This document shows, piece by piece, positions 39,183 through 64,000 of a DNA stretch of 64,000 bases. Positions within the stretch are counted from its first letter, which is position 1, and each line of letters starts with the position of its first letter. The position numbers and the translations under genes are program-made. This DNA comes from Prorocentrum cordatum (lineage: Eukaryota > Sar > Dinophyceae > Prorocentrales > Prorocentraceae), in contig CAUYUJ010010380.1 in NCBI GenBank assembly GCA_963575745.1, positions 239,501 through 303,500 of the forward strand. The letters are read 5' to 3'. The notes beneath the pieces are model-generated. The model searched no databases. It had not been told where the DNA came from and worked only from the letters and a program-made list of their open reading frames with translations.

Positions 39183-39214
<32 letters not shown>

Positions 39215-48779: not shown

Positions 48780-49040
48780 GGGTGGGCCAGACCCAGGATT
48801 GGGTCAGGGGCCAGAGCTGGGGCCCAGGCATGGGCCAGGGCCGAAGCCGGGGCCGGGGCAGGGGCCCAGCGGGCCCAGCTAGGAGACGGAGCTGGGGCCG
48901 GAGCCCGGGCCGGGGGCCGGTGCCCGCGCCGGGGCTGGGGCCGGGGCTGGGGCCACCCGGGCCTGGGCTGGGGCTGACCCCCCCCCCGGGACCTCCCCCA
49001 GGAACCCGACCCGGGACCCTTCCGGGACCCCACCCCACCC
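48780..49040 (+). repeat. GGGGCC/GGGGCT-rich minisatellite
   Basis: Irregular units GGGGCC(G)GGGCTGGGGCC and GGCCCAG over about 260 bases, then CCCGGGACC units to 49040. Not coding. Confidence 0.65.
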
Positions 49041-49256
49041 TAGCGGGAAGGGATCAAAGGGAAGGGGCTCCCCTTCCATCTATTTTGGACGATGCCGTAG
49101 GGTTTGGAATGTTGGTCCCGAGCTGCTCGTCGAAGGGTGGCAAGGATTCAAACCCACGAGGAAGGCGAATCGCCACGCGAGAGGGGGCCACGGGCAGGGA
49201 GACAAGGGTGCTCGAAAGGGCTGGGCACTTAGACTTTAAGGGTAGCTCTTTGGGAG

Positions 49257-50894
49257 GTGTTATATAGGATCGGGAGTATAGCTCGCGCGCCGTTGCCTTC
49301 GGCTCAAGGCACGCGCGCCCTATTTGCCCGGACACTGCTGGTGTTCGCTACGTGCTGGAAAGGTCATTACATCGATCTTATCCTATCTTATCCGTCCACT
49401 CCCCATACTGAACTACCCCAGCATGGCATTGGACGCTATCTGCCATCCGCTTCCCATGGAATCGGATGCTATTTGACTTACCATTGTCACTTCAGACTTG
49501 GTAGCGGAGCTGGCCGCACTCTCGTGTGGTCAGCTCTTGCTCTTCTTATCCTCACGCTATCCGGCACTATCTTCGTGACCAACTACCACCCTGCGCCACC
49601 ACTCCAACTACACTTACGAGGATCGAATCAAGAGCAAGAAGCAACACGAGAGGTACGACGTCTAGACAACAACATTGGTACCATATACGCTTCATCACTA
49701 CGCTACTACCAACCGCTCGGCAACGAGCCAAAATCGCAGTACTTGAAGCAGAGGCGGGGAGACCCGCAAGATAAAGCGCCTCGAAGATTCAACAAGGCGC
49801 TACCCCAGCGCGGCAACGCGCCTGATAACCACCCATATCTTCACAGCCTTGGGTTGGTCATCTTCGCCATCATATGGTTTGCGCTGGGGGCAACAATCGG
49901 ACACATGCGCCGAGGAGACAACAGCACCGATGGGCAAACTCATGGCCCATACTGGGACCCTCAAGGCAACGTACCTTTCCGCGAGTACGTTTATGAGGCC
50001 AACGCGTGGCTCAACGTCACAAGTGGACGCATGACGCCACAGGCCCAAGCAGCCGCCATACAACGCGGCCTGGGCGGCCTAGCGAGGACACTCGCCATGA
50101 GGGTACCACCTGACATTATAAACTACGGTGCGGACATCGGCGGCGTCCACACCGACCCAGTAACCTACATCATGTTCCTCTTAAGCATGAAGTTCGAACG
50201 CCTGGAAGATGAGCGCCAGCTCACTTCAGGCACACAGCTCATCGACTTTCATGTGCCTCACGGAGAACGAACCGATGTAACTCTCACTCGGTTCGAGATG
50301 GCCCGCCTTGAGGCGCAGCCGGTGGGGTTTGATCTTCCCAACTTCCAACTGCTCACTACTATCCTATTCCGCGCCCTAGGCGTCGGCAACCAGAGAGCCA
50401 CGCAACTCTTGCAGCCACTTAACCACCAAATGCCCCGAACACAACAACAATATGATGAGTTGTGCGAGAGGGTGCGTTCGATTGGCATTTGTCCGAACGG
50501 TCTCCTGGCAACAATAGGATCAGTATTTGGAACGGGAAGGGGAACTGGTAGTGGAAACTTCTATACTACCTTAACCACTGAAGCTCAGCCTGGCAACGGG
50601 CCCTCAAACATATGGGCCGACGATCCTGGAGAGTCTACTGCCCTACTAACAGGGGGTCGATCACAACCAAGCTGGGCAACCAGCCCCCCTCCTAGAGAAC
50701 CTCAACCACACCGTTCCCTATGGGGTGAAGCGAATCCCCTAAACGACGGTGTATCCACCTACCTAGGCAATGGCGATTTCAACTCCGGCACCGACACCGA
50801 CACCATATCATCAGATGGTATCGAACCCCTAGATTGGTCAGATATCATGCAAATGGAAGGTGACAATCAGCGTGCCGAACACCTGTTCTGGTAA
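49257..50894 (+). CDS. Gag-like protein with two hydrophobic segments
   Basis: A 545-codon open frame without an early ATG (first in-frame Met codon at about 49903), so the true start is unknown. Residues about 80-105 (LVWSALALLILTLSGTIFVT) and 195-215 (SLGLVIFAIIWFALGATIG) are strongly hydrophobic and look membrane-spanning. From WDPQGNVPFREYVYEANAWL the sequence is a helical Gag domain (QAAAIQRGLGGLARTLAMR, DPVTYIMFLLSMKFERLEDE). Gag builds the particle that packages the RNA. The frame ends in a TAA (50892), after which the same frame continues for 155 codons to the zinc knuckle. Membrane segments are not usual in Ty1/copia Gag. Confidence 0.65.
   Translation: MLYRIGSIARAPLPSAQGTRALFARTLLVFATCWKGHYIDLILSYPSTPHTELPQHGIGRYLPSASHGIGCYLTYHCHFRLGSGAGRTLVWSALALLILTLSGTIFVTNYHPAPPLQLHLRGSNQEQEATREVRRLDNNIGTIYASSLRYYQPLGNEPKSQYLKQRRGDPQDKAPRRFNKALPQRGNAPDNHPYLHSLGLVIFAIIWFALGATIGHMRRGDNSTDGQTHGPYWDPQGNVPFREYVYEANAWLNVTSGRMTPQAQAAAIQRGLGGLARTLAMRVPPDIINYGADIGGVHTDPVTYIMFLLSMKFERLEDERQLTSGTQLIDFHVPHGERTDVTLTRFEMARLEAQPVGFDLPNFQLLTTILFRALGVGNQRATQLLQPLNHQMPRTQQQYDELCERVRSIGICPNGLLATIGSVFGTGRGTGSGNFYTTLTTEAQPGNGPSNIWADDPGESTALLTGGRSQPSWATSPPPREPQPHRSLWGEANPLNDGVSTYLGNGDFNSGTDTDTISSDGIEPLDWSDIMQMEGDNQRAEHLFW
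49715..49821 (+). repeat. Three GNRA mini-hairpins in Gag
   Basis: 49715-49728 GCTCG/GCAA/CGAGC; 49754-49767 GCGGG/GAGA/CCCGC; 49808-49821 GCGCG/GCAA/CGCGC. All have five Watson-Crick pairs. Three different stems and two loop types within about 100 bases. In frame they read LGNEP, RGDPQ and RGNAP. Confidence 0.85.
50588..50601 (+). repeat. GNRA mini-hairpin with one G-U pair
   Basis: GCCTG/GCAA/CGGGC, all five positions pair with one G-U. Reads PGNGP. Confidence 0.7.
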
Positions 50895-51362
50895 TTACAA
50901 CGGGCAAAGCGGAGGTGGAGGAGGTTCACACGAAAACCAGTGCGTCGTGTTATGAGGAGGATACGGAGGAGCTTCAAAGGAGAAGGTAAAGGCAAACGGG
51001 GTCGCCGTAGGTTGAATGGACGAGGCATCCCGGCTTTCCTCCAGATGCTCTCAGATGATCAGTATGATGAGATATTTTTCGGGGGGAAAGGTCGTGGTAA
51101 AGGCCGTAGAGATACCTCAGGTAAAGGTAAAGGTAGGCGGGGAAACCCGCGAGGTAGAGACGGCCAGATCCTAGAGTGCCATGAGTGTGATAGTACCGAT
51201 CAGATTGTAAAAGACTGTCCAGCGAAGGGAAATGGAAAGGGCAGATCGACCGAAGTCCATTTCGGCTCAAGTGAACCAGTCATTGAATATCTGGGCCTCC
51301 AAGATTCTGAGGCCATGGAACAGATATTTTTCATTTGGGCCAGCAGCATGGCATTTGGATGA
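50895..51362 (+). CDS. Nucleocapsid part of Gag with altered zinc knuckle
   Basis: Same frame as Gag after the TAA at 50892. A strongly basic Lys/Arg/Gly stretch (GKGKRGRRR, GKGRGKGRR) precedes CHECDSTDQIVKDC (51177-51218). This has the C-x2-C-x4-H-x4-C spacing of a retroviral zinc knuckle, but the His position is Gln (codon CAG at 51201). The region would bind the genomic RNA. A hairpin (51137) lies within it. The frame is lost at 51360, where the next block is in another frame. Confidence 0.6.
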   Translation, partial: LQRAKRRWRRFTRKPVRRVMRRIRRSFKGEGKGKRGRRRLNGRGIPAFLQMLSDDQYDEIFFGGKGRGKGRRDTSGKGKGRRGNPRGRDGQILECHECDSTDQIVKDCPAKGNGKGRSTEVHFGSSEPVIEYLGLQDSEAMEQIFFIWASSMAFG

Positions 51363-51622
51363 GCTCGAGGCGTACGGCCACGGACTGTGCGCGTGCTACC
51401 TCGAGTACCTCCGCAGATTTGTTCTCGGAAATATCGAGCTTGCGCCTGTGGAGCATGGAACGCTGGGAAACCAGCCCTTATCTTTCTTCGACTGGATGTT
51501 CGGTAACCCAGGCAAAATCATGGCCTACGAGAGCAGTGACGAGGACGTCACTGTTGAGGCCTCGCCTTCGGAGGTTGACCACAACCTTCGACATCAACCC
51601 GACCTTATGCCTGGAAACAGGC
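51137..51622 (+). repeat. Three GNRA mini-hairpins
   Basis: 51137-51150 GCGGG/GAAA/CCCGC; 51462-51475 GCTGG/GAAA/CCAGC; 51609-51622 GCCTG/GAAA/CAGGC. All perfect, three different inner stems, same loop. A related CTCG-GAAATAT-CGAG with a three-base loop insertion lies at 51424-51438. Confidence 0.85.
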
Positions 51623-52722
51623 CCACTCCAGTATATCCTCCAAACTATGCTGATCTGATGGAATTAGAATCCCAAGCGTTCACCGCGGGCGTGCCAGGGA
51701 ACCCATACGCACCACCTGGCACACTCGCACCAGGCGAGTACGGACCGCACACGATACTGCAGACTCTCATGCAGATGCACGCTGCACTGGTCGTAGCCTA
51801 TCCCGAGACCCAAGAGAGTGTCGAGAGTTGCCACATGATGCTACAAGACACCTGTGCTTGTGACGACTCGGAGCTAGTGTTAGCGGCTCTTACTCTTATC
51901 GACAGCGTGCACCCTGAGGACGCGCAGCGACATGCGTGGTATTCCAGGGGGGGAGACGGCGCCAAGCCCTTGAAAGGGCCATCTCCATGCGCGGCCAGGC
52001 TCTCCCTCCGCCGGGATGGTCTCCAGGCGGCGGGGCTACAGCCTAACCATACGGCCATGCGAAATAATATCGGGCAGCCTACGCTCGGTAACGAACCTGA
52101 GCCGACTACCGTACCGCCGACTCCGGGACAGCCAAGCGATGCTCAGACGCTGGTACAGCAGGGAAACCTGCCCGTCCCGGCTGGACCGATGACTGTCGTC
52201 ATCGGCAACCCTATGTCAGAAGATGAAGAGTGCGATGGATGTGGGATGTGCGAGGACGAGACCACCATCCCCATGATGGATGCCAATGGCGAAGACGAGG
52301 AGGTGGATTTCAGCCCCGACCGTCCAGACACACCACCACCTGCACAAGAACCAATTGTGCCAGACTCCAGTCAGCAGGGAGACCTGCCTGCCCAAGATGC
52401 GCCGCCTGCGGCCCCGCAGGAACCCCCGCCGGCTCCTGCTCAGGCTGCGTCGGCGGCTTCGTCTGATGGGCACGCCAGGAGGTCTCGCTCGCATCCACGC
52501 CTTAGGGAAGAACCTCGCCCGCAAGCACGGCTCCCCCGCGAATGGAGGCAAGCAGGCCCAACAGAGCATTTCGCTCGGCGGGGGGGTCAATTGCTCGCCC
52601 TAGGCGTCAACCGGGTGAGCACTCTGCCTTTGGCACAGGCAACCCAGCTTACAGGGATGCCCGAGGCAGGTCCATACGGGGTGGCTACCAGCTCGCGACG
52701 AACATTCGTCGTCAGTAGATAG
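51330..52722 (+). CDS. Retroelement polyprotein, unassigned block 1
   Basis: Continues after a frameshift with AWHLDELEAYGHGLCACYLE, a helical segment around ILQTLMQMHAALVVAYPETQ, a Cys/acidic stretch (CDGCGMCEDE) and a long Pro/Ala-rich disordered tail. I do not recognise a domain. Five hairpins lie within it (two listed in the preceding group, three in the following one). Ends in TAG at 52720. Confidence 0.45.
52083..52387 (+). repeat. Three GNRA mini-hairpins
   Basis: 52083-52096 GCTCG/GTAA/CGAAC, one mismatch and the only GTAA loop; 52158-52171 GCAGG/GAAA/CCTGC, perfect; 52374-52387 GCAGG/GAGA/CCTGC, perfect and differing from the previous one only in the loop. Confidence 0.8.
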
Positions 52723-52724
52723 AG

Positions 52725-53702
52725 GTGGTACGGACGCAGCTGCGAAATGTCATTGCGGCACGCAAGCTATACAGGCCCAACGCAGTCTGTGGGCCGTGCT
52801 CAGAGCCATTCCAGGAGCACAGGCCTGGGTGTCCTGTAGGGCTCAACGAGGGCTTGAGCCCGAATAGAGGCCGCACTCCTGCCAAGGACGGTCACCCACC
52901 GTTGGTTCCGACGACTCAAGCAGAGATCGACGAGATCAACCGTCGTCTCGGAACCACGGCTCATATGAGACCTATGGCCGAGGAGGTCCAGCCTCCGAGG
53001 GGACTGGTGCCTATGACCCAGGAAGAGAAAGATGCGCTCAATCGCCTTCCTGGAATGCGGGGAAACCCGCCTGGCGTCTCCAGTCAGGCCCAACAGCCAG
53101 AGATGATGGACGACGATGAACAGAAGGATCAGCGAGCCGCAGCAGATGCGGAGCGCAGGCGAGTGGCAGACGAACGCACCCGCGAGGCAACTCGCCAAAT
53201 GCTGCTGGAGTCCCAAAAGATCTATATGAAGGGGGCAAGAAAGCCCCCATTCCAACCGAAGGCCAAGAGCGAAACACCTGCACCCAGGACGCCTTCGGGG
53301 GAGAGACAGAAAACGTCAGCCCGCTCAGAGGAGTTTGGGTCAGGTGTGCAGATGGAGATGCCTCGTTCTGAAACGCCGAGGTCACCGACTAGAGCAACTC
53401 CGGCACAGAGACCCGACCCCAGGCAACAACCTCAGGACCCCGTGGAGATTCGTAGACGACCGCCTAGCCGTAGCGGCTCTATCGCCGGCAAGGCCAGGGC
53501 TTTCGAGCGCACAGGGTTTACCCCTACGCCGGCCTCGCCTGCGGCGGCACGCTCCAAGAGGTCTGAGGAAGGCATTCTATCTAGGGGTGCCTGGGTGCTT
53601 AAGATCAAGGGCAGCGCCAGCCGAGAAACACTGCGGGGAAACCCGCCAGGCGCTGCAGCTGCAGCATCCCCCCCCCCCCAGGAGCCGCAGCCTCTTCGGT
53701 GA
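52725..53702 (+). CDS. Retroelement polyprotein, unassigned block 2 with a zinc-finger-like motif
   Basis: Frame changes directly after the stop at 52722. CGPCSEPFQEHRPGC (about 52788-52832) has C-x2-C-x6-H-x3-C spacing and could bind zinc. A charged coiled-coil-like segment follows (AAADAERRRVADERTREATR), then Pro/Arg-rich disorder. Ends at a TGA that overlaps the next reading frame at 53699-53702. Confidence 0.45.
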   Translation: MVRTQLRNVIAARKLYRPNAVCGPCSEPFQEHRPGCPVGLNEGLSPNRGRTPAKDGHPPLVPTTQAEIDEINRRLGTTAHMRPMAEEVQPPRGLVPMTQEEKDALNRLPGMRGNPPGVSSQAQQPEMMDDDEQKDQRAAADAERRRVADERTREATRQMLLESQKIYMKGARKPPFQPKAKSETPAPRTPSGERQKTSARSEEFGSGVQMEMPRSETPRSPTRATPAQRPDPRQQPQDPVEIRRRPPSRSGSIAGKARAFERTGFTPTPASPAAARSKRSEEGILSRGAWVLKIKGSASRETLRGNPPGAAAAASPPPQEPQPLR

Positions 53703-53729
53703 CAGAGGCCCCTTTGCGGGGAAACCCGC
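53057..53729 (+). repeat. Three identical GNRA mini-hairpins
   Basis: 53057-53070, 53633-53646 and 53716-53729 are all GCGGG/GAAA/CCCGC and code RGNPP. The last lies just after the change of frame at 53700, yet keeps the same codon phase in the new frame. Confidence 0.85.
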
Positions 53730-54484
53730 CCGAGGATAAGCTGCACCACCCAGGGGGCACTTCCTTTACTAGCGGGAGTCAGGCTTTGATCAATGATCGA
53801 CGTGCCCTGCGGAATCTTCCACCGATGCGCTCGGTGGAAGAGGCATTCACGGAGAGCTGCAGGCAGAAAGGTCTTGTCCCGAGACATAACCATACACTCA
53901 AGCAGCTCAGTAAATGCCTCAACAGGATCTGCAGACACGCGCCTGACAAACCACACAATGCCGCGTGGAGCCTTGAGACATTCGACGATCATGATGGATG
54001 GATCAATCTCGACGAGCTCGCACGCGAGCTTCCGCGGCGCAACGGACGTACTAGACAGGACGGGCATAACCCTAGGCTGGATGAGGCCAAGATCATCGCC
54101 GAGACCTTCTACGGCAGAACGGTTGACCAGATGGCCGCCATCATGATGGCGATCGTTCACGTCCGCGAGCCGGACGGCGAGGAGAAGCAGCGTCTCCAGT
54201 TTAAGGTCTTGGTGTGGGATTCTGGCAAATCCGACATATTCATCCGTGCCTCGCAAGGGCACTCGTGGACGCTCAAGGCCCCTTGGTCGTTGTACAAGTA
54301 CATTGTACTACACGACAATCCTGCCGGGAGACCGGCCCCATGCCCCGAGGTGGCCATGCATGGCACACGATGGACAGCCTTTGAGGGCATCATGTGGTAT
54401 GGCCTCTCTTGTCGTCAAGAACACAACACCAAGAAGAGAAGGGTCCACGGGAAAGCAATGGCGGAACCCAGAATATTTGGGTAA
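53699..54484 (+). CDS. KptA/Tpt1-like RNA 2'-phosphotransferase domain in the retroelement
   Basis: Tpt1/KptA removes the 2'-phosphate left at an RNA ligation junction, using NAD+; relatives also ADP-ribosylate RNA ends. Visible in order: LKQLSKCLNRICRHAPDKP (Arg 53933, His 53936, the catalytic 'RH'), DDHDGWINLDELAREL (the 'DGW-x-x-x-D-E-L' winged-helix signature), a KQRLQFKV segment (the family's 'KxRF'), IRASQGHSW (Arg 54245, the 'RxxQGHS' motif), MHGTRWTAFEGIMWYGLSCR (HGT at 54359-54367, Arg 54413) and EH (His 54422). All four residues known to be essential in yeast Tpt1 (R-H-R-R) have counterparts. The last ~40 residues of the fold are missing or out of frame. A host-type RNA repair enzyme inside a retroelement polyprotein is unexpected. 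Confidence 0.75.
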   Translation: MTEAPLRGNPPEDKLHHPGGTSFTSGSQALINDRRALRNLPPMRSVEEAFTESCRQKGLVPRHNHTLKQLSKCLNRICRHAPDKPHNAAWSLETFDDHDGWINLDELARELPRRNGRTRQDGHNPRLDEAKIIAETFYGRTVDQMAAIMMAIVHVREPDGEEKQRLQFKVLVWDSGKSDIFIRASQGHSWTLKAPWSLYKYIVLHDNPAGRPAPCPEVAMHGTRWTAFEGIMWYGLSCRQEHNTKKRRVHGKAMAEPRIFG

Positions 54485-55589
54485 TCGCCTTGCACGCGTC
54501 TCCACCGCCATAATGACGGCCCCGAACAGGTGGACCACTGTGGGCAGTGCTAGTGTCAAGCACAGATGGTCTCTTGACCGAGAGGCTAATGAGTCTCCTA
54601 CGGTTCATGGTCAGAGAGAAGTTGGGGACCATTACAGCCCAACAGTGCTGGGAAAACAGCCCGAGATCCACCAGATCCTTATGGTCAACGAGAGTGAGGC
54701 AGGAAGCGCGGCTCCAAGCCGTGCTCCAAGCCAAGGGCCTAGTGCCATATATTGGCAGGTCCTCAGCACCTCAGATCTGGATCAGATCGCGGCCGCTCTA
54801 AACCCTGAGCAGGTGGAACAGCTAGCGGACAGACTGTACCAGCAAGACCCCTGGGCCGCAGGCCAGGGAGCCATGTCCGCCATGGTGACGCGTAACCGTC
54901 AGGCCATGCAGGGAAACCTGCCCGTTAATGGTCTTAGACACGATATGCCCGAACCGCAGGGAGACCCGCAAACGTTCGGCCGCATCTTCGGAGAGCCTGC
55001 TCGATTTGAGCAGATGCCAGGGAGCCCCTCGCATAGCATGCACACACCGAGGGGCATGACCCCAGTGGCGACGCCACCAGCACAGTCTCCGTATGGGACT
55101 CCTGGTCGATCTGCCACGAATGGCACTCTCATGGAGCGAATCGCCGCGGCCAGAGCTGAGCATGGCACAGCTCTTCTGAACATGATGCCACCTGGCACGC
55201 CAACGAGTCTGCAGGGAAAGCTGCCCGGCACTCCAATACACCACCGACCTTTCGCTGGCCAAACTACCGCTGCTGGAGTGCCTGACGACTACCGCGCAAG
55301 GGTGGCAGCTGCGGTACAACAGGTGCAGAGTCACAACCTTCCCCACCCAAGTGGTCAGAGGTGGAGGCCAGCCTGGTCCTGGGAGCCAGAGGGTCCGAAT
55401 CCACGTGACCCTGCTCGGCAACGAGCCTTTATCCCGGCCTTCAATGCTCATCCGAGCATGGCTCAGGGCCAGAGGCCAGCACCAGCACCAATGGATCCGC
55501 CACTGTACCCAGACGGGTCTAGAGCCCCGAACAGATTTGTTCGCGAAATGGCGGATCAGTTTCATAGCCTCACGACTGCGCTGCAGTGA
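54400..55589 (+). CDS. Retroelement polyprotein, unassigned block 3
   Basis: After the phosphotransferase the coding frame shifts. A helical segment (SDLDQIAAALNPEQVEQLAD) is followed by Met/Pro/Gly-rich disordered sequence and ends FVREMADQFHSLTTALQ. No domain recognised. A hairpin at 55413 falls in a different codon phase from its relatives. Confidence 0.45.
54647..54969 (+). repeat. Three GNRA-type mini-hairpins, one perfect
   Basis: 54647-54660 GCTG/GGAAAA/CAGC has lost its closing pair; 54908-54921 GCAGG/GAAA/CCTGC is perfect; 54956-54969 GCAGG/GAGA/CCCGC has one A-C mismatch. Confidence 0.75.
55211..55426 (+). repeat. Two GNRA mini-hairpins
   Basis: 55211-55224 GCAGG/GAAA/GCTGC has a G-G closing mismatch. 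55413-55426 GCTCG/GCAA/CGAGC is perfect and is read as ARQRA in the likely coding frame, not as the usual LGNEP. Confidence 0.75.
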
Positions 55590-57663
55590 TCAGCCCATGT
55601 ATCCGCACATGGCTTTCATGCCTGCACCGACAACGCCAGAGGTGGCCGTCCAGCCTACTGCCCATTCAATATCATCAGGCAGTAGAGGAGCACCAGACTA
55701 CATCAGGCAGACGTACCACACTCAACAGGCGTGCTTTAGGCGCAGGCAGGCAGTACAGAGCGCACGTGACCAAGCACGCGCATCCGCACTTGAGGTCGCG
55801 AGGAACAGAGGCTCACCCATGCGAGGAAACTCGCCGGCCGTGTCGCCCGCAGCCTCCGCAACGGCAGCTCCTTCAGCAGTGGTTGCCGCAGCACCGGAGG
55901 CATTGGCTCCCGCAGGAGACCCTCCAGCTGCTTTCCTGGGCTCCGAGTCAGTCCTGGAGCGGCAGCGGCGGGTGTACCCTAGGGCGGCAGATGTGGAAAT
56001 CTATATTGGGATGGAAGACACCTGCGCGGTATGCCTCGAGGAGTTTCAGCCGAGGGAGAGTATCTACCGCTTGAGGTGCAACCACTTGTTCCACGAGGAG
56101 TGCTGGGACTCGAATGCGGTGGGCCATGCTGCGAATCAGCGAGAAGGAGATCCACAACAACCAGTATGTGCTATCTGCCGAGCGCCAGGCATCATAGCGT
56201 CATCGTTTCCATGGACCGGCTCCTACACTCAGGCCCCCGAACAGGCAGCGAGGGAGCTGCGGGAGTTGAGGAGCATGGTGGAGGAGATGACAGCCAATAT
56301 GCTGGACAGGCAGACAGCACAGCCCCAGCAGCGGGGAAACCCGCCGGAGGAAGTGAGGTCGCCGATGGAGACGGGATATTTCGACCAGCTTATCCCGACG
56401 ACGGCACCTCAGCAGGGAAACCTGCCGAACACTCCACCTGTGCCGATCCTTCCGACTCAATACGAGCCAGGAGTCGGGCAGGTCGCTCCTCCGATGTCTC
56501 CCCAGAGTGGGGGTGGGGCCGAGCTGCCACTGGACCCTGAACAGCTGCGAGAACTGCACGTCCGCCACTTCCAGACCCAGATGGGCAATGCACACACTAC
56601 GTTCATGTTGGACGCCAATGCTCCTGAGACTGAGAACTCGTCGTTGGATCTCTCAGACTCATCAGTGGCGACAGCGGCAACAGCAGTCAGGGCCGTCGAG
56701 CTCTCAGCAACGAACAGTGAGTTCGACGAGTGGTTGCATTGCAGGGACCACCTTACGAATGATGGATTACAGGACATCGCCCTTCATTCGTACTTGACGC
56801 TGACGCGGCGTACTACCCGCGAACAGTACACGAGCATACGTGATGAGCATGCCCACTGGCAGGAGGAACAGGGCGCCCAAGCCCAGAACGTGTCGTACTT
56901 CCAGTACATCGATCTGGCACGAATGGCCGCAGGAAGGCCAGGTGCCAGCACGATGCGGGGAAACCCGCCAAGAAGTACGACCGAACTGCGGGGAAACCCG
57001 CCAGACAGCACAGCCGGCACGTCAGAGACAGTGCACATCAAGCAGCCTAGTAAGACCTTTCTTGAGGATGGTGGAAACTCAATCCTCATAGACGTGGGCT
57101 CGAAGATCAACAGAATGGGAGAAAATGCGAGCCGCAAGTTCGTTCAGGCTGCTGGGGCACATAATCGTCCTTGTACGTTTGAACCTCGTTCTCGTTTAAA
57201 CATCAACGGGGTAGGCGAGGGGTCGGGCCCAGCTGATACCGCGGGCACCTTCAGCATTGCCTGCGCGTGCCAGGGTTCGACCCAGCTCGACTCGTACAAG
57301 ACAAATATGGTGTCAGGCTGTGGCAAGGACCTGCCAGCTATCCTGAGCCTCGACAGTGCGCAGGACAAGCGCCCTTTTATTGTGCTGGAGCGAGGCCAGG
57401 AGAAGCTGATATTCCCTGGGAAGGGACAGGTCAAGATGGAACTCCCCGAGGGCTCCAAGATCATGCCAACAACGAAGTTGCCATCAGGGGATCTGTCAAT
57501 CAGGTGCGATCGATTCGGAGCCGCGGGGCAACCCGCCTCGAGCACAAGTACCACATCGTTCCAGACGGTGCTGACAGGCGAGCCGACCCCTGCGCAAGAG
57601 CGCCAACAATTGCAGGGCAACCTGCCTCAGGGGTTGCTCGAGACACTCGCCAAACGACGATGA
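55590..57663 (+). CDS. Retroelement polyprotein block with RING-H2 finger and retropepsin-like domain
   Basis: One long frame, entered by a frame change near 55590. Pro/Ala-rich linkers surround two domains: a RING-H2 finger (56023-56178) and, after a helical region with NSEFDEWLHCRDHLTNDGLQ, an aspartic-protease-like domain (57064-57500). The frame ends at a TGA at 57661. Seven hairpins lie inside it, and the one at 57523 is in another codon phase. Confidence 0.6.
55821..55834 (+). repeat. GNRA mini-hairpin with compensated stem
   Basis: GCGAG/GAAA/CTCGC, perfect. Relative to GCGGG/CCCGC both partners of the fourth pair have changed (G-C to A-T). Confidence 0.85.
56023..56178 (+). other. 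RING-H2 zinc finger (within the polyprotein)
   Basis: CAVCLEEFQ...RLRCNHLFHEEC...PVCAIC carries all eight zinc ligands with spacing C-x2-C-x14-C-x-H-x2-H-x2-C-x21-C-x2-C, the RING-H2 pattern of E3 ubiquitin ligases (Leu after the second Cys and Trp after the sixth ligand are also typical). It implies possible ubiquitin-ligase activity of the element's protein. RING domains are not a standard part of Ty1/copia elements. Confidence 0.85.
56331..56425 (+). repeat. Two GNRA mini-hairpins after the RING finger
   Basis: 56331-56344 GCGGG/GAAA/CCCGC and 56412-56425 GCAGG/GAAA/CCTGC, both perfect. Confidence 0.85.
56955..57001 (+). repeat. Two GNRA mini-hairpins just before the protease
   Basis: 56955-56968 and 56988-57001, both GCGGG/GAAA/CCCGC, 33 bases apart start to start. 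Confidence 0.85.
57064..57500 (+). other. Retropepsin-like aspartic protease domain (within the polyprotein)
   Basis: SILIDVGSKINRMGENASRKF has the position and surroundings of the catalytic D-T/S-G loop, with DVG (Asp at 57091). INGVGEGSGPA supplies the flap-like glycine segment, and YKTNMVSGCGKDLPAILSLD resembles the 'P-A-LSL' end of the domain in dinoflagellate Ty1/copia proteins. It would process the polyprotein. Val in place of Thr/Ser in the catalytic triplet makes activity doubtful. Confidence 0.55.
57523..57625 (+). repeat. Two GNRA mini-hairpins with GCAA loops
   Basis: 57523-57536 GCGGG/GCAA/CCCGC reads AGQPA, first codon phase. 57612-57625 GCAGG/GCAA/CCTGC reads QGNLP, third phase. 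Both are perfect and lie in the same open frame, so the hairpin is not tied to one peptide. Confidence 0.85.
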
Positions 57664-57983
57664 GAGGCGACAGCATCGATGATCTGGAGACGTTCGATTG
57701 CTTCGTAGCCAGGACACTGGCCCAGCATGGCGGACTTGTACCCATGGATGCTGTACGGTCCCGCTGGAAGATAGTGATGGGATACTCGAGTCATGAGCTG
57801 CAGACGGTTAACGACGCAAGGTCGAAAGGCCTAGTGGAGCAGCTGATGGACACTCCATCCATGCTGGCTACGTTTGCGGAGCAATCCGCCTCTGAGGCTA
57901 CCGCGCGCTGCAGCGCTGAGCTCCAGCATCTGAGAGAAGCCCAGATGCTGGCAGACGTTGCAGGCGCATCTTCTTCATCTTGA
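57660..57983 (+). CDS. Retroelement polyprotein, short helical block
   Basis: A frame change overlaps the previous stop (ATGA). MRGDSIDDLETFDCFVARTL and a helix (EATARCSAELQHLREAQMLA) end in ASSSS and a stop. No domain recognised. Confidence 0.4.
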   Translation: MRGDSIDDLETFDCFVARTLAQHGGLVPMDAVRSRWKIVMGYSSHELQTVNDARSKGLVEQLMDTPSMLATFAEQSASEATARCSAELQHLREAQMLADVAGASSSS

Positions 57984-58022
57984 AGATGGCAGGGCGACGC
58001 TGCCCCCTCGTCGCCTTGCCTA

Positions 58023-59024
58023 ATGACCGATAGGCCAGGGGGTAACAAGGACAGCGGGGCAACCTGCCATAGCAAAAGAGCTTTCGTCATCGAAGATACG
58101 AGAGAGGCTTGCGCCGACCTCCGCACCCGAGGTTATATATGTGATCGCATTTCCCACAATGAACTTATGACGACTGTGGGCACAGATTACCTGGGTGCGG
58201 TGATCAGTGGGGACTACGCTCTAATATGGGTCAGTACCCCGGGTGACTGGTATGTACGAACCCCAGGAGAGAGAATAGCCCCACACTGTTCTCGTATTCA
58301 AAACCTTCTGAGAAAAGCCAAGAAGCTCCGCATGAAAATCATAGCGATTGGCCCCCCAGGATACGTTTGGAAGTTATCCCCAATACGTGGTACTCTGGAA
58401 GATCTCAAGTTGACGGTAGTAAGAATACGGTTGTGTAATTTCGGTATCAGGTTTTATATGCAAGACAATACACCGAGTGGTACCTACATGCAGGTCGCCA
58501 CATCAATACCGATTAGTTTTAAGTTGTGGGCATGTACGTGCAAACTGGCGATACCACAACATGTGTTGGATTGGTACGGCCAGACGGTGCGACATGCCGA
58601 ATGGAGAGCTCAGACACGCATCACACTCATCCGTTACCTCAACGACAAAATCCTGGGCAGCAACACTACGCACGGAAACGCGCCGATATATTTGAACACC
58701 TATACACGTACGGATCACAACATTCATCACTATGTGACGACCAACCAAGGAGGACCGAAATGGTCTGATGTCATCCGACGTGTAACAATCAACCTGGATA
58801 CCAACACGGTTATACAGGATATCGCAGTAGCCGATCAACCAACAGGATATGATTGGCACGCACCACTACCTACAAGGGTTGCCAACATCAGTACACGGAT
58901 GTACTGGCAGCCCGAGGAACCGGTCATACTCGGAAACGAGCCTACTCAATCACCACAGAAACCTAGACGCGTCATCATAGATGACTGTCCTTCTCCCCTC
59001 CCGACTCTGGAGATTGAAGCATAA
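58023..59024 (+). CDS. Retroelement polyprotein block with methyltransferase-like domain 1
   Basis: A 333-codon frame. DYALIWVSTPGDWYV (about 58215) sits where DNA C5-methyltransferase-like proteins have the motif IV loop ('D-x-I-x-x-S-x-P'); KLRMKIIAIGPPGYVWKL (58326 on) resembles the following strand and motif VI region; and IPQHVLDWYG plus Trp/Arg-rich sequence closes it. The classical 'PCQ' and 'ENV' are absent. I infer a Rossmann-like methyltransferase relative of the kind found in dinoflagellate Ty1/copia polyproteins. It could instead be another nucleotide-binding fold. Confidence 0.35.
   Translation: MTDRPGGNKDSGATCHSKRAFVIEDTREACADLRTRGYICDRISHNELMTTVGTDYLGAVISGDYALIWVSTPGDWYVRTPGERIAPHCSRIQNLLRKAKKLRMKIIAIGPPGYVWKLSPIRGTLEDLKLTVVRIRLCNFGIRFYMQDNTPSGTYMQVATSIPISFKLWACTCKLAIPQHVLDWYGQTVRHAEWRAQTRITLIRYLNDKILGSNTTHGNAPIYLNTYTRTDHNIHHYVTTNQGGPKWSDVIRRVTINLDTNTVIQDIAVADQPTGYDWHAPLPTRVANISTRMYWQPEEPVILGNEPTQSPQKPRRVIIDDCPSPLPTLEIEA
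58054..58067 (+). repeat. GNRA mini-hairpin in second codon phase
   Basis: GCGGG/GCAA/CCTGC with one G-U pair. In the open frame it reads SGATC, the only copy in the second codon phase. Confidence 0.75.
58670..58940 (+). repeat. Two slightly decayed GNRA mini-hairpins
   Basis: 58670-58683 GCACG/GAAA/CGCGC has one A-C mismatch. 58929-58940 CTCG/GAAA/CGAG keeps four pairs; its outer pair (58928/58941) is A-C. Confidence 0.7.
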
Positions 59025-59026
59025 CG

Positions 59027-59323
59027 ATGGGCACACAGACCGGTGAACAAGACGAGCAAGTCTTACCTACGGAGTCGCGTATCAAACAGAAGGAAAGGCT
59101 CAAAGCCGAAAAGGAAGCAGGCATCAAGCCTCGCCGCATCAAAAAGCACGTTGAAGAAGGAAACGATGATTGCGGTGACGACTTGTCGGGACTCGGACAG
59201 GATCTTATGGCGACCTGGAGCGCTGACGTCCCTGTTGAGCTGATATGCTCAGGTGAGGATGATGACCTGTTCCTACCCCCCCCACATCTATTCCCGACAC
59301 ACACGCTGACATATATAGCATAG
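59027..59323 (+). CDS. Retroelement polyprotein, charged linker
   Basis: Starts at an ATG two bases after the preceding stop. SRIKQKERLKAEKEAGIKPR and KKHVEEGNDDCGDD form a charged segment like the one that lies between protease and integrase in related polyproteins. The end of the frame overlaps a 9-bp inverted repeat at 59315-59340 (ATAGCATAG ... CTATGCTAT). Confidence 0.45.
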   Translation: MGTQTGEQDEQVLPTESRIKQKERLKAEKEAGIKPRRIKKHVEEGNDDCGDDLSGLGQDLMATWSADVPVELICSGEDDDLFLPPPHLFPTHTLTYIA

Positions 59324-59960
59324 TAGCTACGCTATGCTATGGTCACAATAATTGCGTGGATATGTTGGAGCTTTGTGAAGGTGAGGGTGGTATTCCAGAG
59401 CTTGCCTTCTCAAGGGGTCTTTCCTCAGGAGGTAACTTAGACAAGACCACGCGCGTCGACCTGGGAGATCCCTCGGTGCAGCGAGCTGTAGATCATTACT
59501 TCGCAGTATGCCACGTACGAGTAGCCATGCTACAGCCCAGTTGCCGCACCACAGGACCACCATCCGACTACAACTACAAAGTCAACCACAGCACTTGGGA
59601 ACAGCATCATAAATAAGATTTGCCACGCATAACTTATTGTGGCAAAATAGCTGTTACTCAAGATAATGCACGGAGGTGGTCTATACGCGAACAACCCACA
59701 GGAACATGGGTGGATTATATTTCCCCATGGAAAGAACTTGCCAACTGACCACATATCACAACCGTACACATCGACCAATGTGCGACGGGACTCAAAGATA
59801 CGGCTGGTGACTATATCAAGAAACCGACAAATATCACCAGCAACGACGAGACGATTCTTAAACCCTTTGAGCGACTCAAATGCAACGGTCAGCATGTGCA
59901 CGCACAACCGTGCAACAGGGAGCTTTCACTGGCACAAAAATACACTCGACGACTGCAGTC
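59312..59960 (+). pseudogene. Methyltransferase-like domain 2, frameshifted
   Basis: VDMLELCEGEGGIPELAFSR (Asp at 59359) matches a motif I SAM loop ('D-x-x-E-x-C-x-G-x-G-G'). RVDLGDPSVQRAVDHYF follows, then VAMLQPSCRTTGPPSDYN (Cys at 59542), where motif IV of C5-methyltransferases places its catalytic Cys. After a TAA at 59614 the frame changes to REQPTGTWVDYISPWKEL (motif VI-like 'E-x-P'), IDQCATGL and IKKPTNITSN, then CNGQHVHA. One more in-frame TGA interrupts (59746). Cytosine methyltransferases are reported in dinoflagellate retrotransposons; whether this one is catalytic cannot be judged. Confidence 0.5.
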
Positions 59961-62196
59961 CGCCTTTGTGGAAGCTGTTTACTTGGCGAAAGCCATTGAC
60001 ACCACGCGCGGAGACGCGCCTACACGCACTGCGCATACTTACCCTGCTGACCTTCCTGATCTAGCTGAACCAGGAGAAGGTATGAGACGCATCGGCGATC
60101 GCATCACCCCGAAAGTGGCTACATGCCCAGCATGCATCGGCAATGTCCGAAAGGACAGTCCCAGCCACAACAGAGATCCTACACAGTGTAAGTATCATGA
60201 TTCTATCTCTGCATATTGGCCATGCCCTGCATGCCAAAGGGACCTTACGAGAAGCAAGGGTGTTATGAACCACCTCGACACTGAACCCGGCAAATGCCGT
60301 TGTGCTGAGCCGTTCAAACTCCCAGATGATCATGATCCCGAGGGCAACAATGTGCCAGCTTGGTGGAAACCCTTACCCAAGCCTGGGGAGGGCCAAGCTT
60401 CAGCATCGGGCGGCCGTCAGGGCGCTCACGCCAGGCCACCACGACCACGAGCCCTTGGGAACACTGATCCTACATCTGGCGCCAGCAGTTACGATGTACT
60501 GCGAGACGCGCCCGAGCGTGGAAACACGCCTTCCGCGTCTTCAGGCGAGCCGCCACAAGTAGCGGCCCGCCGTGGTCGCCTACAAGGCGCACCACCACCA
60601 CCAGATGCAGTTGACGAAGGAGACCGACTGCGGAGAGCCACAAGGAACCCTCTTGCCTCAACCGGCTCGGGGGCTCCACGACTGCCCGACTGGACGAGAC
60701 TTGACATCCAACACAGTCTGCAAAACCTCCGTAGTCACGAACCTCACGTAGTCAAAAAGGAACTCCGTAAACTGCACTTGCGGTGGTACCATGCGAAGGA
60801 ATCCAAGATGAGGCTAATCCTAGACAAAGTGGACCTGGACAACGTTCGACTAAATATGACCAAAGAAATCTGTGACGCATGTCGGGAATGTAGAGCATGG
60901 GAACGTCCAGGTAATTCTACGCTACCTTCCGTAAGCCTCCCTGGAAATTGGCTTGACGAAGGTGAAGTACATCTCATGTTCTACAAGAAACGAACCATAT
61001 TTCACAGTATGGACCGGTGTATCCGCCTGGCAGCAGGCCAAGAGATTCCAGATACAGAACGTGACACTATCCTCGACGCCTACCACTACTGGTGGATTGC
61101 CTATCATGGACCCTTCAAAGACTTGTATTCAGATGGAGAAGGCGCCCTCAACAATGACACTGCCAAGGCCATGATGGCGAACAAGGGTGCGACACTTCGT
61201 ATCCGAGCGCCTAGCCAACACGCGACCTCGATCGAGTCACGCAACGGCATTCGTAGGGGCACCCCCCATATGATTGAGGAAGAGCTGAATAGACACAACA
61301 TCCCTGTTGTATTCACTAGAGTATTGGCTGAAGGCATCTTCGTCACTAACGCTTTCACGTTTTACAACGGAGTATCGCCATACCAAGCACACACTGGGCG
61401 ACAGCCCTCCTTTCTTCCTGACCTCGACACCCTTGACTTCCCTAAGGGACCCGAGACGTCAGGCCACGAACGAGAACGCCGCGTGAGGGAAGTTGGCCTG
61501 GAAGCAATAACACAAGCCACGGCGGTAGCTAAGACAAATCGTGCTCTCAGGGCTAAGACGGCCCCAGATGGTGCTCGCCTTTACTCAGCAGGGGACTTGG
61601 TCGACTATCACCGACCTACAGCCACTAAGGACGACCATGGAGGCTGGAAAGGCCCGTTTCCTGTGATCCGTAACGCGCCTGAACGAGGACACGTCGTCGT
61701 CAAGGCAGGATCACGTGAGGTAATTGTAATGTACCTTGATGCTCGACACACGCTATACATTGAATGCCTCCTTACCAGGGAACTTGGCATGGACAACATG
61801 GCCATGCAAACCGTCCTTACATTTGTGGCACACCTTGGTGCAGGGAAACCTGCCAAAGTCTTTGGCTATATTCCAGGTTATAAGGGAAATCTCAATCTGT
61901 CGGACGACAGCAAGTTCCACCCGCGCGTACACCTTCCACTACAGTATCTCGTGCGAAATTATTTCCGAGTTGAACGCGTAGTAGCCGTGAGACTGGCCCA
62001 GAGCGTGTCTAGTCTACCTGCAGTTAAGTACGCCACCGGGTCTACACTGATCCACTACGACAACGACGTCAACCCAGCCTTCCACTACTATGAGTGTGTG
62101 GGCACCGGCTTGAACATCTGTCAAATCACTGGTAGCACTCACTCCCAGACTCATCCAGTGCCTGACGTCACATGTCCCTTCCCTAGGATTGCATGA
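59896..62196 (+). CDS. Integrase region of the polyprotein
   Basis: A 766-codon frame, the longest in the element. After a Cys-rich part (CPACIGNV, CPACQRDL) and a disordered linker comes the integrase: LHLRWYHA...CDACREC is the HHCC zinc domain (His 60775 and 60790, Cys 60871 and 60880). LYSDGEGAL (Asp 61132) and SIESRNGIRRG (Glu 61234) give the second and third acidic residues, 33 residues apart. The first Asp, expected before LMFYK, is missing (GEVHLMFYKK). The C-terminal DLVDYHRPTATKDDHGGWKG is the SH3-like DNA-binding part. The last 130 residues are unassigned. Confidence 0.75.
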   Translation: MHAQPCNRELSLAQKYTRRLQSAFVEAVYLAKAIDTTRGDAPTRTAHTYPADLPDLAEPGEGMRRIGDRITPKVATCPACIGNVRKDSPSHNRDPTQCKYHDSISAYWPCPACQRDLTRSKGVMNHLDTEPGKCRCAEPFKLPDDHDPEGNNVPAWWKPLPKPGEGQASASGGRQGAHARPPRPRALGNTDPTSGASSYDVLRDAPERGNTPSASSGEPPQVAARRGRLQGAPPPPDAVDEGDRLRRATRNPLASTGSGAPRLPDWTRLDIQHSLQNLRSHEPHVVKKELRKLHLRWYHAKESKMRLILDKVDLDNVRLNMTKEICDACRECRAWERPGNSTLPSVSLPGNWLDEGEVHLMFYKKRTIFHSMDRCIRLAAGQEIPDTERDTILDAYHYWWIAYHGPFKDLYSDGEGALNNDTAKAMMANKGATLRIRAPSQHATSIESRNGIRRGTPHMIEEELNRHNIPVVFTRVLAEGIFVTNAFTFYNGVSPYQAHTGRQPSFLPDLDTLDFPKGPETSGHERERRVREVGLEAITQATAVAKTNRALRAKTAPDGARLYSAGDLVDYHRPTATKDDHGGWKGPFPVIRNAPERGHVVVKAGSREVIVMYLDARHTLYIECLLTRELGMDNMAMQTVLTFVAHLGAGKPAKVFGYIPGYKGNLNLSDDSKFHPRVHLPLQYLVRNYFRVERVVAVRLAQSVSSLPAVKYATGSTLIHYDNDVNPAFHYYECVGTGLNICQITGSTHSQTHPVPDVTCPFPRIA
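60516..60529 (+). repeat. GNRA mini-hairpin with compensated stem
   Basis: GCGTG/GAAA/CACGC, perfect; fourth pair T-A in place of G-C. Confidence 0.85.
61840..61853 (+). repeat. GNRA mini-hairpin in first codon phase
   Basis: GCAGG/GAAA/CCTGC, perfect, but read as AGKPA rather than QGNLP in the open integrase frame. Confidence 0.85.
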
Positions 62197-62350
62197 CGAC
62201 CTTGCCAAGTATCAGCACTTGGGCACAACATCTGGAGGACATGACCAGCCTGGAGACAGGCCTCCACCAGACACCCCAGGTGCTTCATCACCAAGTTAAG
62301 GTCGCCTGTCTACAATCTACGAAGAAAACGAGGAACATGACATCGAGGCT

Positions 62351-62770
62351 ATGATGATGGAGGAGTGGTACGACGAACTACGCATGGACCTTCATCCCAC
62401 AACGGTTACCGACGATCATCTCTACTGCGTCCCAACAACCATGCTGCCCGACCAATGTGTTCTGGGCTCAGCATCCGTGGGCGAGGAAGATATCATAGTG
62501 TCGGAAACGCTCGGAGACGAGCCTGAACCACAAGAGCCTTGTCTTATCTCTAGATGCTCGACTACACCTGACGAGGGCTATTCTCTTGACAGTGATGAAC
62601 ATGGTCCTTATGTTGAGTTATGTTTCACACCAGAAATATCAAAGGTAGCGTTGCATCAGACCCAACTTGCACGGCTTGAAACTGACATGGTCGCAACGAT
62701 GAGAGTATATGTATCATCGGCTGCTAAACGTGCTGTGGTAGTCAAGGAAGACGAGGCTTCCCTAAAGAGG
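62351..62770 (+). CDS. Retroelement polyprotein, integrase-RT linker
   Basis: Acidic segment with DEPEPQEPCLISRCSTTPDE and SLDSDEHGPYVELCF, leading into the reverse transcriptase after a frame change near 62770. The stretch 62197-62350 before it carries stops in all frames. No domain of its own. Confidence 0.45.
62509..62522 (+). repeat. GNRA mini-hairpin with GAGA loop
   Basis: GCTCG/GAGA/CGAGC, perfect; same stem as 49715 and 55413 but a different GNRA loop. Reads LGDEP. Confidence 0.85.
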
Positions 62771-62775
62771 CTAGT

Positions 62776-63056
62776 GAAGCTTTGTACACCGAACTCAAGA
62801 TCTGGCTTGATAACCGGCGCTTCGAGATGTCCGACCTATCTAAAGCTTCCAACATCATGACATCCAGATATGTATACAAGTGGAAGTTTGTGAAGGTAGG
62901 CACCGAGAATGTTAAGACCATCCGTCTCAGACCTGTCCTTCGTGGGTTCATGGACACGGAGGCGTTTGATGTAGAAACCTTCTCAGGAACAACTGCTCGA
63001 AGACAGTCCCAGAGGCTCCTGGCAAGTCAGGCGGCACGCCATCCAGAATGGATCTT
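62776..63056 (+). pseudogene. Reverse transcriptase N-terminus, truncated
   Basis: EALYTELKIWLDNRRFEMSD, then NIMTSRYVYKWKFVK and IRLRPVLRGFMDTEAFDVET: the start of a Ty1/copia RT (fingers, with 'R-x-V-x-R-G-F'). It stops being recognisable after RLLASQAARHPEWIF, before the first catalytic Asp, so motifs A-E and RNase H are absent. The break at about 63056 is followed by C/A-rich sequence and a T run, which suggests deletion or recombination rather than drift. Confidence 0.75.
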
Positions 63057-64000
63057 TCGGGCCCCTCCCCCACCAGGAAACAAAACCAGGGCCTCGACAA
63101 ATTTGTTTTTTTTTTTTTTTGCCATATTGATTGGTGGGAACAAATGCGGTCGTCGCCGCGCGCTTGCCCTGATTTAGCAATGTCGGTCGACGGACGCACG
63201 CGAAGCGCGCGAGTTTCCTTCTCATAATTGTTTCTGCCGTGTGCCGCGTTTTCATGACGCACGCGCGCGCCTTGCCTTTTCAGACTCAATCGCTCGTACT
63301 AGCGTGCGGACCGCATGCAGGCCGCAGTCCACGCGCGCTAGCGCGGCGCACCGCAGCGCGCTTCGAAACGATGTTGGGCACAATGGCATTTTTACCGCAA
63401 CGCCGCGAATTTGTTAGCCACCCCGCGCGGGCGACGCCGAACGCATGCGTGTCCCACCGCATGTGCGCCGCCAGAGCTAATTTTCCGATTTCGATTGTGA
63501 ATTGTATCGCGGGCGCGTGTCAGGCGCCCTCGACGTGCCATGTAGGCCCGCGCATTGGGCGCCCACGAATCATGTCGGAAACATGTCATCTTACTACTCT
63601 CGCGTTCGCCGGGCGACTCGCGGTCCTAACGGGCGCGCGGTAGCATTCTGCGGCGAAGGGGGGGGGCGTGGCGGCGCGGCGGGGGAGGGAGAGGAGGGGG
63701 GGGGAGATTGGCAGGAGGAGGAGGAGGAAAATGACGAGGAGGAGGAAGAGAGCGAGGGGACATGGTGGCGGGCATCCCCGACTTCAGCTTGCCTGGCCCA
63801 ACCCTTCGGGGGGGGCGTCGTTCGGCCGGGGCGAGCGCTGCGTGGAGTTCGCCCCAGGAAGCTCCCATCGGAAATTGGGGGGGGGGAAGGCGTTGGCGTT
63901 CCGATGCCTGTGGCGAACCCGCCGCTATGCGGGCGCTGTGGGTCGCAAGCCTTTTGGATGTTGGCGCAGGTTTCGTTTTTTTTGTTTTTTTGCGTGGGGG
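63057..64000. other. No recognisable gene
   Basis: Starts with a C-rich patch and a run of 16 T (63104-63119), then GC-rich sequence with GCGCGC clusters, a GGA/GGGG purine tract (63656-63770) and a T-rich end. No gene or repeat family is recognised. Confidence 0.5.

Follow-up and report, generated by a model that had tools for sequence, protein, structure and literature searches.

Large retrotransposon derivatives (LARDs) are long elements that have a pair of long terminal repeats (LTRs) and a primer-binding site and that lack long open reading frames (ORFs). The boxB hairpins of phages lambda and P22 combine a 5-bp stem with a five-base loop of GNRA-like fold, are read by a short basic peptide and act in transcription, whilst the mobile bypassing elements of yeast mitochondria and the Rickettsia palindromic elements place many short hairpins, as longer units, in the ORFs of one genome. 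Dispersed packaging signals are already known in small RNA viruses, as described in excerpts of several papers (PMC6281560, PMC5431903, PMC7793301, PMC7612645), and an excerpt on nematomorph mitochondria describes coding palindromes with long arms in organelle genes (PMC6649704). Here we analyse a stretch of 64,000 nucleotides (the window) from the dinoflagellate Prorocentrum cordatum (GenBank assembly GCA_963575745.1, 4.13 Gb in 21,875 contigs; contig CAUYUJ010010380.1, positions 239,501 to 303,500 of the forward strand), the right part of which holds one copy of an LTR retroelement set with small hairpins of the form GC-NNN-GNRA-N'N'N'-GC. These hairpins are constrained at the level of the nucleic acid, covary, are kept independently of coding and are confined to the sense strand in the elements studied in full; that they represent an RNA-level signal is well supported.

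An earlier note on this DNA, made from its letters alone, had proposed about 31 such hairpins within a single retroelement. The set is real and the case for it stronger than the note had made it; between 49601 and 62600 we count 29 perfect copies on the sense strand (23 in the note), two copies with one G-U pair, as many as in the note (50588 and 58054) and five, rather than about six, with one defect (54647, 54956, 55211, 58670 and 61984). As claimed, the loops of the perfect copies are all GNRA and GAAA occurs 15 times; GCAA and GAGA number 8 and 6 instead of 5 and 3. The antisense strand of the same region contains no perfect hairpin, which bears out the proposed sense-strand constraint, and in 300 shuffles of this region that preserved its dinucleotides the pattern turned up 0.04 times on average and never more than once, in keeping with the predicted chance level of well under one. 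The set belongs to one retroelement, as proposed. The remaining 49.6 kb of the window holds three perfect copies, none of them G-C-closed (shuffle mean 0.26). Stem length is exactly 5 bp, as 0/29 extend further. Of the 29, 28 close with a G-C pair and 27 have C as the next 3' base, and the motif can therefore be written GCNNGGNRACNNGC(C). With pairs 3 and 4 free, GCNNGGNRACNNGC matches the sense strand of the element 32 times, 28 matches being Watson-Crick at both free pairs and two more having G-U; it has no match on the element's antisense strand and four over both strands in the left 49 kb of the window, none complementary. Together, the shuffles and free-pair scans rule out chance or base composition as the source of the hairpins. 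When the last C is required as well, GCNNGGNRACNNGCC (pairs 3 and 4 free) gives 29 matches in the element (20 distinct), in which 99% of cells are paired and the covariation score is 0.56 compared with 0.094 in shuffled data; none of 500 shuffles reached 0.56 and a control with slid partners gave at most 0.082. Predicted folding with 50-nt flanks yields a mean pair probability of 0.81 for the sense strand versus 0.57 for the antisense strand, with 25 of the 29 hairpins above 0.5. Rfam covariance models had no matches in 49000-63200 up to an E-value of 1. A partnership between GAAA loops and the 11-nt receptor was also considered and rejected, as the element contains one CCTAAG and no CCTAAG-TATGG pair within 200 nt.

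To compare copies, ten were retrieved from other contigs by one hairpin, GCAGGGAAACCTGCC; they are approximately 70-95% identical in the longer aligned pieces. Perfect hairpins number 28-35 per fetched copy and 18 in C107, which aligned only from 54762, and no antisense hairpins were found in any of the ten. Our conservation sample comprises 37 sites with at least three perfect copies among 11 copies (365 aligned cells), of which 319 cells are perfect hairpins and 321 have C as the following base. Mean pairwise identity is 0.955 within the 14 nt versus 0.82 over 30 nt on each side, with sharp steps at both edges. Double compensatory changes between copies are present at five sites (49754, 51462, 51609, 53057 and 56331), accompanied at 51609 by a broken inner pair, and the covarying stems of the earlier note were thus recovered both between copies and between sites. 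Equal frequency on the antisense strand or in shuffled sequence, and stems that do not covary, had been set beforehand as outcomes that would speak against the proposal; they were looked for and did not occur. The loop is GNRA in 339 of the 365 cells, at sites preselected for GNRA, with GACA, GATA and GGCA found twice each. The commonest non-GNRA loop is GAAG (5/365 cells). No clean empty site was seen among the 11 copies: the hairpin losses at 49808 and 52083 are in-place substitutions, that of C2 at 56412 is an alignment gap and that of C70 at 53716 is ambiguous.

The codon context gives further information on the nature of the constraint. For 25 sites whose phase is x-G-N-x-P, identity at third codon positions is 0.948 inside the hairpins versus 0.72 outside, compared with 0.95 versus 0.841 for first and 0.944 versus 0.846 for second positions, so that the usual codon ranking of constraint vanishes within the hairpins. 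Hairpins in other codon phases are kept in up to 11/11 copies, and residues encoded by the paired arms change together, as in R-P to Q-L at 56331. Hairpins are likewise present in the 3' untranslated region (UTR). One example is C181, where two hairpins (at 8242 and 8418) lie between the end of the RNase-H-like frame at 8169 and the 3' LTR. A comparable stretch was obtained from 16 of 21 candidate loci; 15 of these 16 have a perfect first UTR hairpin, six of the 16 having been chosen for it (9/10 among the others), and the last, which was not used for choosing loci, is perfect in 13. In locus L159 the middle UTR hairpin is doubled by a 36-nt tandem duplication. By eye, a second stem-like stretch lies beside the last UTR hairpin in L132, L137 and L160. 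A peptide motif alone is ruled out as the explanation by these hairpins in the 3' UTR and in other codon phases, and by the non-coding element described below.

This non-coding LTR element, on contig C20328, provides the strongest evidence that the hairpin serves RNA and not translation, from one element only. It was located by a search with the GCTTG stem, the two hits near its two ends being the bait. Its LTRs (265 bp) are 95% identical, its primer-binding site is the same as that of the window element, and a target-site repeat of 4-5 bp was noted by eye. Resemblance to the main family (72-84% over 43-147 bp) is seen in parts of the LTR and of its left neighbour. Between the LTRs the DNA does not align to the main family, save for a short match (L172) to the window's left half, and therefore its hairpin sites are not inherited main-family places. 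No long ORF was found in it, the longest sense frames being 175-205 amino acids per piece versus shuffled means of 139-174; one antisense frame, of 274 amino acids, is open as far as the end of its piece. A search with 27 query proteins, 10 from the family and 17 homologues, gave no match at 1e-5, and a Pfam scan of eight sense frames returned only two weak matches below cut-off. The element thus has the LTR pair, primer-binding site, lack of long ORFs and length above 4 kb of a large retrotransposon derivative. Its sense strand carries 27 perfect GNRA hairpins and its antisense strand none (mean 0.405 and maximum 2 in 200 shuffles). All 27 have outer GC pairs and close with G-C, features that the scan did not require. 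The stems of 20 hairpins also occur in the main family and those of seven do not (GCTTG 2, GCCAG 2, GCAAG 2, GCATG 1). A scan of this element that left pairs 3 and 4 open gave 30 matches, of which 27 are Watson-Crick and one further match contains G-U. Loops on its GC-outer stems, which were not preselected, are GCAA 10, GCGA 10, GAAA 7, GCAG 3, GAAG 2 and single others. Six of the GC-outer 5-bp stems carry GCAG, GAAG or GTAG loops. Four hairpins stand in tandem at 30-nt steps, and predicted folding with 50-nt flanks gives a mean pair probability of 0.51 for the sense versus 0.33 for the antisense strand. The presence of 27 hairpins in an element without long ORFs implies selection on RNA rather than on translation.

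Counts across the genome indicate the reach of the motif. GCNNGGAAACNNGCC occurs 24,693 times, compared with 1,663 for the reversed pattern, GCAGGGAAACCTGCC has 5,249 hits (control 3) and GCTCGGAAACGAGCC 1,745 (control 5). The GCTTG stem with all eight GNRA loops has 85 hits versus 19 for the reversed control; it does not form a perfect GNRA hairpin in the ten main-family copies and is found in the 3' UTR with a U-G pair. Two of the contigs holding these 85 places, each with two hits, were read: C20328 led to the non-coding element and C12303 did not. On the latter (L168, C12303:37300-44300), a hairpin and its reading-frame surroundings are repeated 5,039 bases apart, a tandem or segmental duplication. 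Among 12 isolated-looking GCTCGGAAACGAGCC places that were fetched, 11 belong to the main element family and one (L156) does not. Outside the studied clusters, the same hairpin pair recurs exactly 2,659 bases apart at C1:2058748 and 2061407 and at C2:1712169 and 1714828, perhaps as part of another hairpin-bearing repeat. Locus L150 has one perfect hairpin and four with a G-U pair, three of them at 24-nt steps, each with one G-U. A distant relative, L153, with 47% and 39% amino-acid identity in two regions, carries a hairpin at a place where the window family has none. Homologous proteins of other sources (n = 17) contain 15 eligible x-G-[N/D]-x-[P/L/R/Q/H] sites, and codon complementarity holds at 11, five of them in P0016 alone; a residue-shuffle control averaged 0.93 complementary of 5.8 sites (maximum 6 in 500). 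This complementarity, read at the protein level, suggests that hairpins are present in these homologues also. A set of 120 IMG/VR stretches, each with exactly one GCAGGGAAACCTGCC, gave background only, 4/43 other motif matches being complementary. The motif common to other elements, the codon-phase bias considered below and the break at 63056 go beyond the earlier note.

Table 1. Coordinates of the retroelement, its frames, representative hairpins and the non-coding element (window positions unless a contig is named)
Feature	Position	Strand	Remarks
Retroelement copy	49232..63056	+	LTR to break point; from alignment to ten other copies
5' LTR	49232..49498	+	same stretch at 3' end of other copies
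gag-like ORF	49257..50891	+	conserved region approximately residues 230-410
Primer-binding-site-like TGGTAGCGGAGCTGG	49500..49514	+	directly 3' of LTR; identical letters after 5' LTR of non-coding element
Hairpin GCTCG-GCAA-CGAGC, first of set	49715..49728	+	perfect in 10/10 aligned copies
Hairpin GCTGG-GAAA-CCAGC	51462..51475	+	compensatory GCTCG/CGAGC in three other copies
Hairpin GCGGG-GAAA-CCCGC	53057..53070	+	compensatory GCGAG/CTCGC in six copies
ORF with KptA/Tpt1 RNA 2'-phosphotransferase domain	53699..54481	+	Pfam PF01885, E 6.8e-11
Hairpin GCCGG-GAGA-CCGGC	54323..54336	+	within coding stretch of KptA/Tpt1-like domain; perfect in 10/10
ORF with RING finger	55351..57660	+	Pfam PF17123, E 8.9e-9
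Hairpin GCGGG-GAAA-CCCGC	56331..56344	+	compensatory GCAGG/CCTGC in other copies, some with non-GNRA loops
Hairpin GCGGG-GCAA-CCCGC	57523..57536	+	codon phase 0; perfect in 11/11 copies
Open frame with protease-like D-S-G-A-T near start	57984..59021	+	after conserved in-frame TGA at 57981
Integrase-like ORF	59896..62193	+	13 homologues, coverage up to 98%; 'integrase' by eye
Hairpin GCAGG-GAAA-CCTGC	61840..61853	+	codon phase 0; perfect in 11/11 copies
Hairpin GCTCG-GAGA-CGAGC, last of set in window copy	62509..62522	+	perfect in 11/11
Non-coding LTR element	C20328:47776-64505	minus	16.7 kb; LTR pair, primer-binding site, hairpin set

The carrier is an LTR retroelement of about 16 kb if complete. 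LTR-to-LTR length is 15.9-16.1 kb in the six coding copies measured, with 89-98% identity between 5' and 3' LTR within each of six copies, and the terminal direct repeats expected of LTRs (235-306 bp) are present in six other copies and, at 59 bp, in a seventh; a terminal repeat search found none in C107, a copy without its 5' part. The match to the window starts at 49221-49236 in 9/10 fetched copies (54762 in C107) and ends at 63056 in all ten, beyond which the other copies extend for approximately 2 kb up to the second LTR. The window copy is therefore truncated, without the reverse transcriptase (RT)-like and RNase-H-like frames (recognised by eye), 3' UTR and 3' LTR of the other copies. 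We take the primer-binding-site-like stretch to resemble tRNA-iMet. Within the LTR, the stretch at 49291-49310 ends in GGCTCAAG and resembles the dinoflagellate spliced leader; L134 and the LTR of the non-coding element share this feature. Since a Pfam scan of the first ORF gave no match, it is labelled gag-like by place and pattern; four homologues of other sources share 40-47% identity with it. By eye, its protein has two hydrophobic segments (residues ~88-109 and ~193-219), perhaps membrane-spanning, which flank a variable stretch, and P0014 and P0015 are similar. A protein search with the RING-bearing ORF gave no match at E 0.001. To our knowledge, a KptA/Tpt1 domain and a RING finger are unusual cargo for an LTR element; a KptA-like stretch was also noted by eye in another element, L150. 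The window copy lacks, at 54443, about 215 bp found in most other copies. An in-frame TGA (57981-57983) separating the gag-side frame from the D-S-G-A-T frame is kept in the window and in 10/10 other copies, and is a possible readthrough or reinitiation point. The D-S-G-A-T motif itself is encoded within a near-hairpin (58054-58067) that is perfect in only 1/11 copies. The integrase-like ORF has no Pfam match and no relatives matched in IMG/VR. In L134 the integrase-like frame precedes the RT-like frames (by eye), which is the copia-type order; the family's own copies have no Pfam match that would support a copia assignment, and the homologue P0006 matches RVT_2 below the curated cut-off. To the left of the element, the ORF at 37707-39341, whose first half is calreticulin-like by eye, appears to be a host gene.

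How might these hairpins function? Our preferred explanation, to which we give even weight for and against, is that they form a cis-acting RNA signal, present in many dispersed copies, to which a common protein binds, most likely in Gag-driven packaging. The recognised unit would be a GNRA loop on a 5-bp stem whose outer pairs, G-C and C-G, are fixed and whose closing pair, G-C, is nearly so, the middle two pairs being free provided that they are paired. A common RNA-binding protein, most likely the element's Gag, would dock on the hairpins as equivalent sites, many to each ~16-kb genomic RNA, and docking would lead to selection, condensation and packaging of that RNA. The ORF-poor LTR element, of near-equal length and with its own hairpin set, could then travel in the particles of its partner. 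Hairpins that are sense-only wherever an element was studied in full, predicted to fold, repeated, free at two pairs, varied within GNRA and kept without long ORFs fit multi-site RNA-protein recognition; the protein partner and the packaging step are what we infer from this. Gag packaging is the most economical choice because a protein-less element must keep the signals by which partner proteins select its RNA, and because the non-coding element, a single case, is near the coding element in length. Since the LTR element without long ORFs and the 3' UTR keep the hairpins, a cis-acting RNA signal is favoured, and among the roles suggested in the earlier note packaging or protein docking fares best. 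Dimerisation by loop kissing, which had also been suggested, is not favoured because GNRA loops are not self-complementary and vary within GNRA. More broadly, and more tentatively, dinoflagellate LTR retroelements may share a family-crossing tag, GC-NN-G-GNRA-C-N'N'-GC, with tens of copies per RNA for packaging; a protein-less element of genome length may have evolved or kept 27 tags and parasitise a coding element, and relatives in other organisms may use the same grammar. In the literature searched, a limited collection, we found no description of a uniform GNRA hairpin set in a retroelement. If the proposal is correct, about thirty uniform hairpins that persist over 16 kb despite codon freedom, and that recur in an element without long ORFs, would make this retroelement a natural example of multi-site RNA recognition that is unusually easy to read. 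Binding would then be expected of synthetic hairpins with any GNRA loop and any choice of middle pairs, and not of others. Such a tag may also bear on the filling of very large dinoflagellate genomes by these elements.

Several observations weigh against this explanation. Of five covariation measures, two (pairs with both bases changed, and the number of pair types) are no higher than in shuffled data, because variation is limited to pairs 3 and 4. By the longest-frame rule, one codon phase, x-G-N/D-x-P, accounts for 25 of the 31 standard-paired GNRA sites, which implies that some protein-level preference acts too; x-G-N-x-P may be the least harmful way for a protein to carry the hairpin. Just one non-coding element was read; of its 27 hairpins, two had served as bait and only 14 exceed a mean pair probability of 0.5. 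In the distant relative L153, one perfect GNRA hairpin is in sense orientation and two are antisense. Among the homologous proteins, 10/17 have no codon-complementary site, near-identical proteins account for 3 of the 11 complementary sites, and a wider listing of x-G-[NDS]-x-P sites in P0001-P0013 gives 6/18 complementary. The predicted Gag model was unusable (predicted local distance difference test score 38.7). Finally, an excerpt on Ty1 places its cis signals near the ends, with up to 5 kb of the middle dispensable (PMC4974528).

Alternative readers and alternative molecules must also be weighed. A host RNA-binding protein, not Gag, might read the hairpins as export, stability, localisation or anti-processing tags. 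The occurrence of the motif in elements that are unalignable outside the LTR, including the one without long ORFs, is consistent with such a reader, and free middle pairs with a variable GNRA loop would suit a general structural one; however, since 11/12 isolated-looking GCTCGGAAACGAGCC places fall in the element family, use by host genes is not apparent in a sample that hardly includes them, and we regard a host reader as unlikely. The acting molecule could instead be DNA, as a single-strand hairpin during reverse transcription or as a cruciform. GNNA loops are stable in DNA too, and the sense strand also exists as plus-strand complementary DNA. Against this, GNNA loops other than GNRA are few at the aligned sites (which were chosen for GNRA), and in the non-coding element, where no such choice was made, GCAA, GCGA and GAAA prevail. 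Because the loops follow the GNRA rule, we infer that RNA rather than plus-strand DNA is the acting molecule, and a DNA-level structure seems very unlikely.

The earlier note had also raised a self-spreading hairpin parasite, that is, a selfish mini-hairpin spreading in retroelements by tandem duplication or short insertion, tolerated and useless to the element. This idea is borne out in so far as local tandem duplications exist, namely the runs in the non-coding element and in L150 and the duplication in the 3' UTR of L159, and the L153 hairpin at a place empty in the window family fits it as well. Yet the hairpins are also held by selection: they are better conserved than their flanks, show compensatory changes and have no antisense copies in the main family, and the 11 copies offer substitutions at 49808 and 52083 rather than a clean empty site. 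We therefore consider purely selfish spread distinctly unlikely, somewhat less so than a DNA-level structure. A translation device or peptide feature, such as x-G-N-x-P turns, pausing or ribosome bypass, would account for the codon-phase bias but not for hairpins conserved in other phases, in the 3' UTR and in the element without long ORFs, nor for the joint change of paired residues at 56331; its probability is slight, and as the main cause it is nearly excluded, whilst a secondary preference could survive. The preferred explanation thus remains a multi-site RNA signal read by a protein, most likely Gag.

Comparison with known systems places this set close to, and apart from, several of them. 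Compared by stem and loop, the hairpins share with boxB the 5-bp stem and GNRA-like fold and differ in having four-base loops instead of the GNRNA pentaloop. Mobile bypassing and Rickettsia elements differ in that the hairpins described here also lie in untranslated regions and in an element without long ORFs; identity with a mobile bypassing element was rejected on these grounds and for want of a clean empty site in 11 copies. The non-coding element resembles LARDs in its LTR pair, primer-binding site and lack of long ORFs, and differs by its 27 structured motifs common to a coding family. The nematomorph palindromes are alike as inverted repeats kept within genes and, in the excerpt concerned, differ in their long arms and organelle genes and in that no common loop is named there (PMC6649704). 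Ty1 and Ty3, as far as the excerpt on their packaging regions goes, are alike as LTR retroelements whose RNA needs selection by Gag, whereas the Ty1 signals are terminal and the middle deletable and here the motif extends over 16 kb (PMC4974528). In the small RNA viruses, again according to excerpts, many short stem-loops with a common recognition motif are spread across the genomic RNA, and many copies of one stem-loop motif across the genomic RNA are what we find in this element; there the genomes are small and contacts with the coat protein are demonstrated, whereas here the carrier is an LTR retroelement, the hairpin is more uniform, an ORF-poor element has its own set and binding is putative (PMC6281560, PMC5431903, PMC7793301, PMC7612645).

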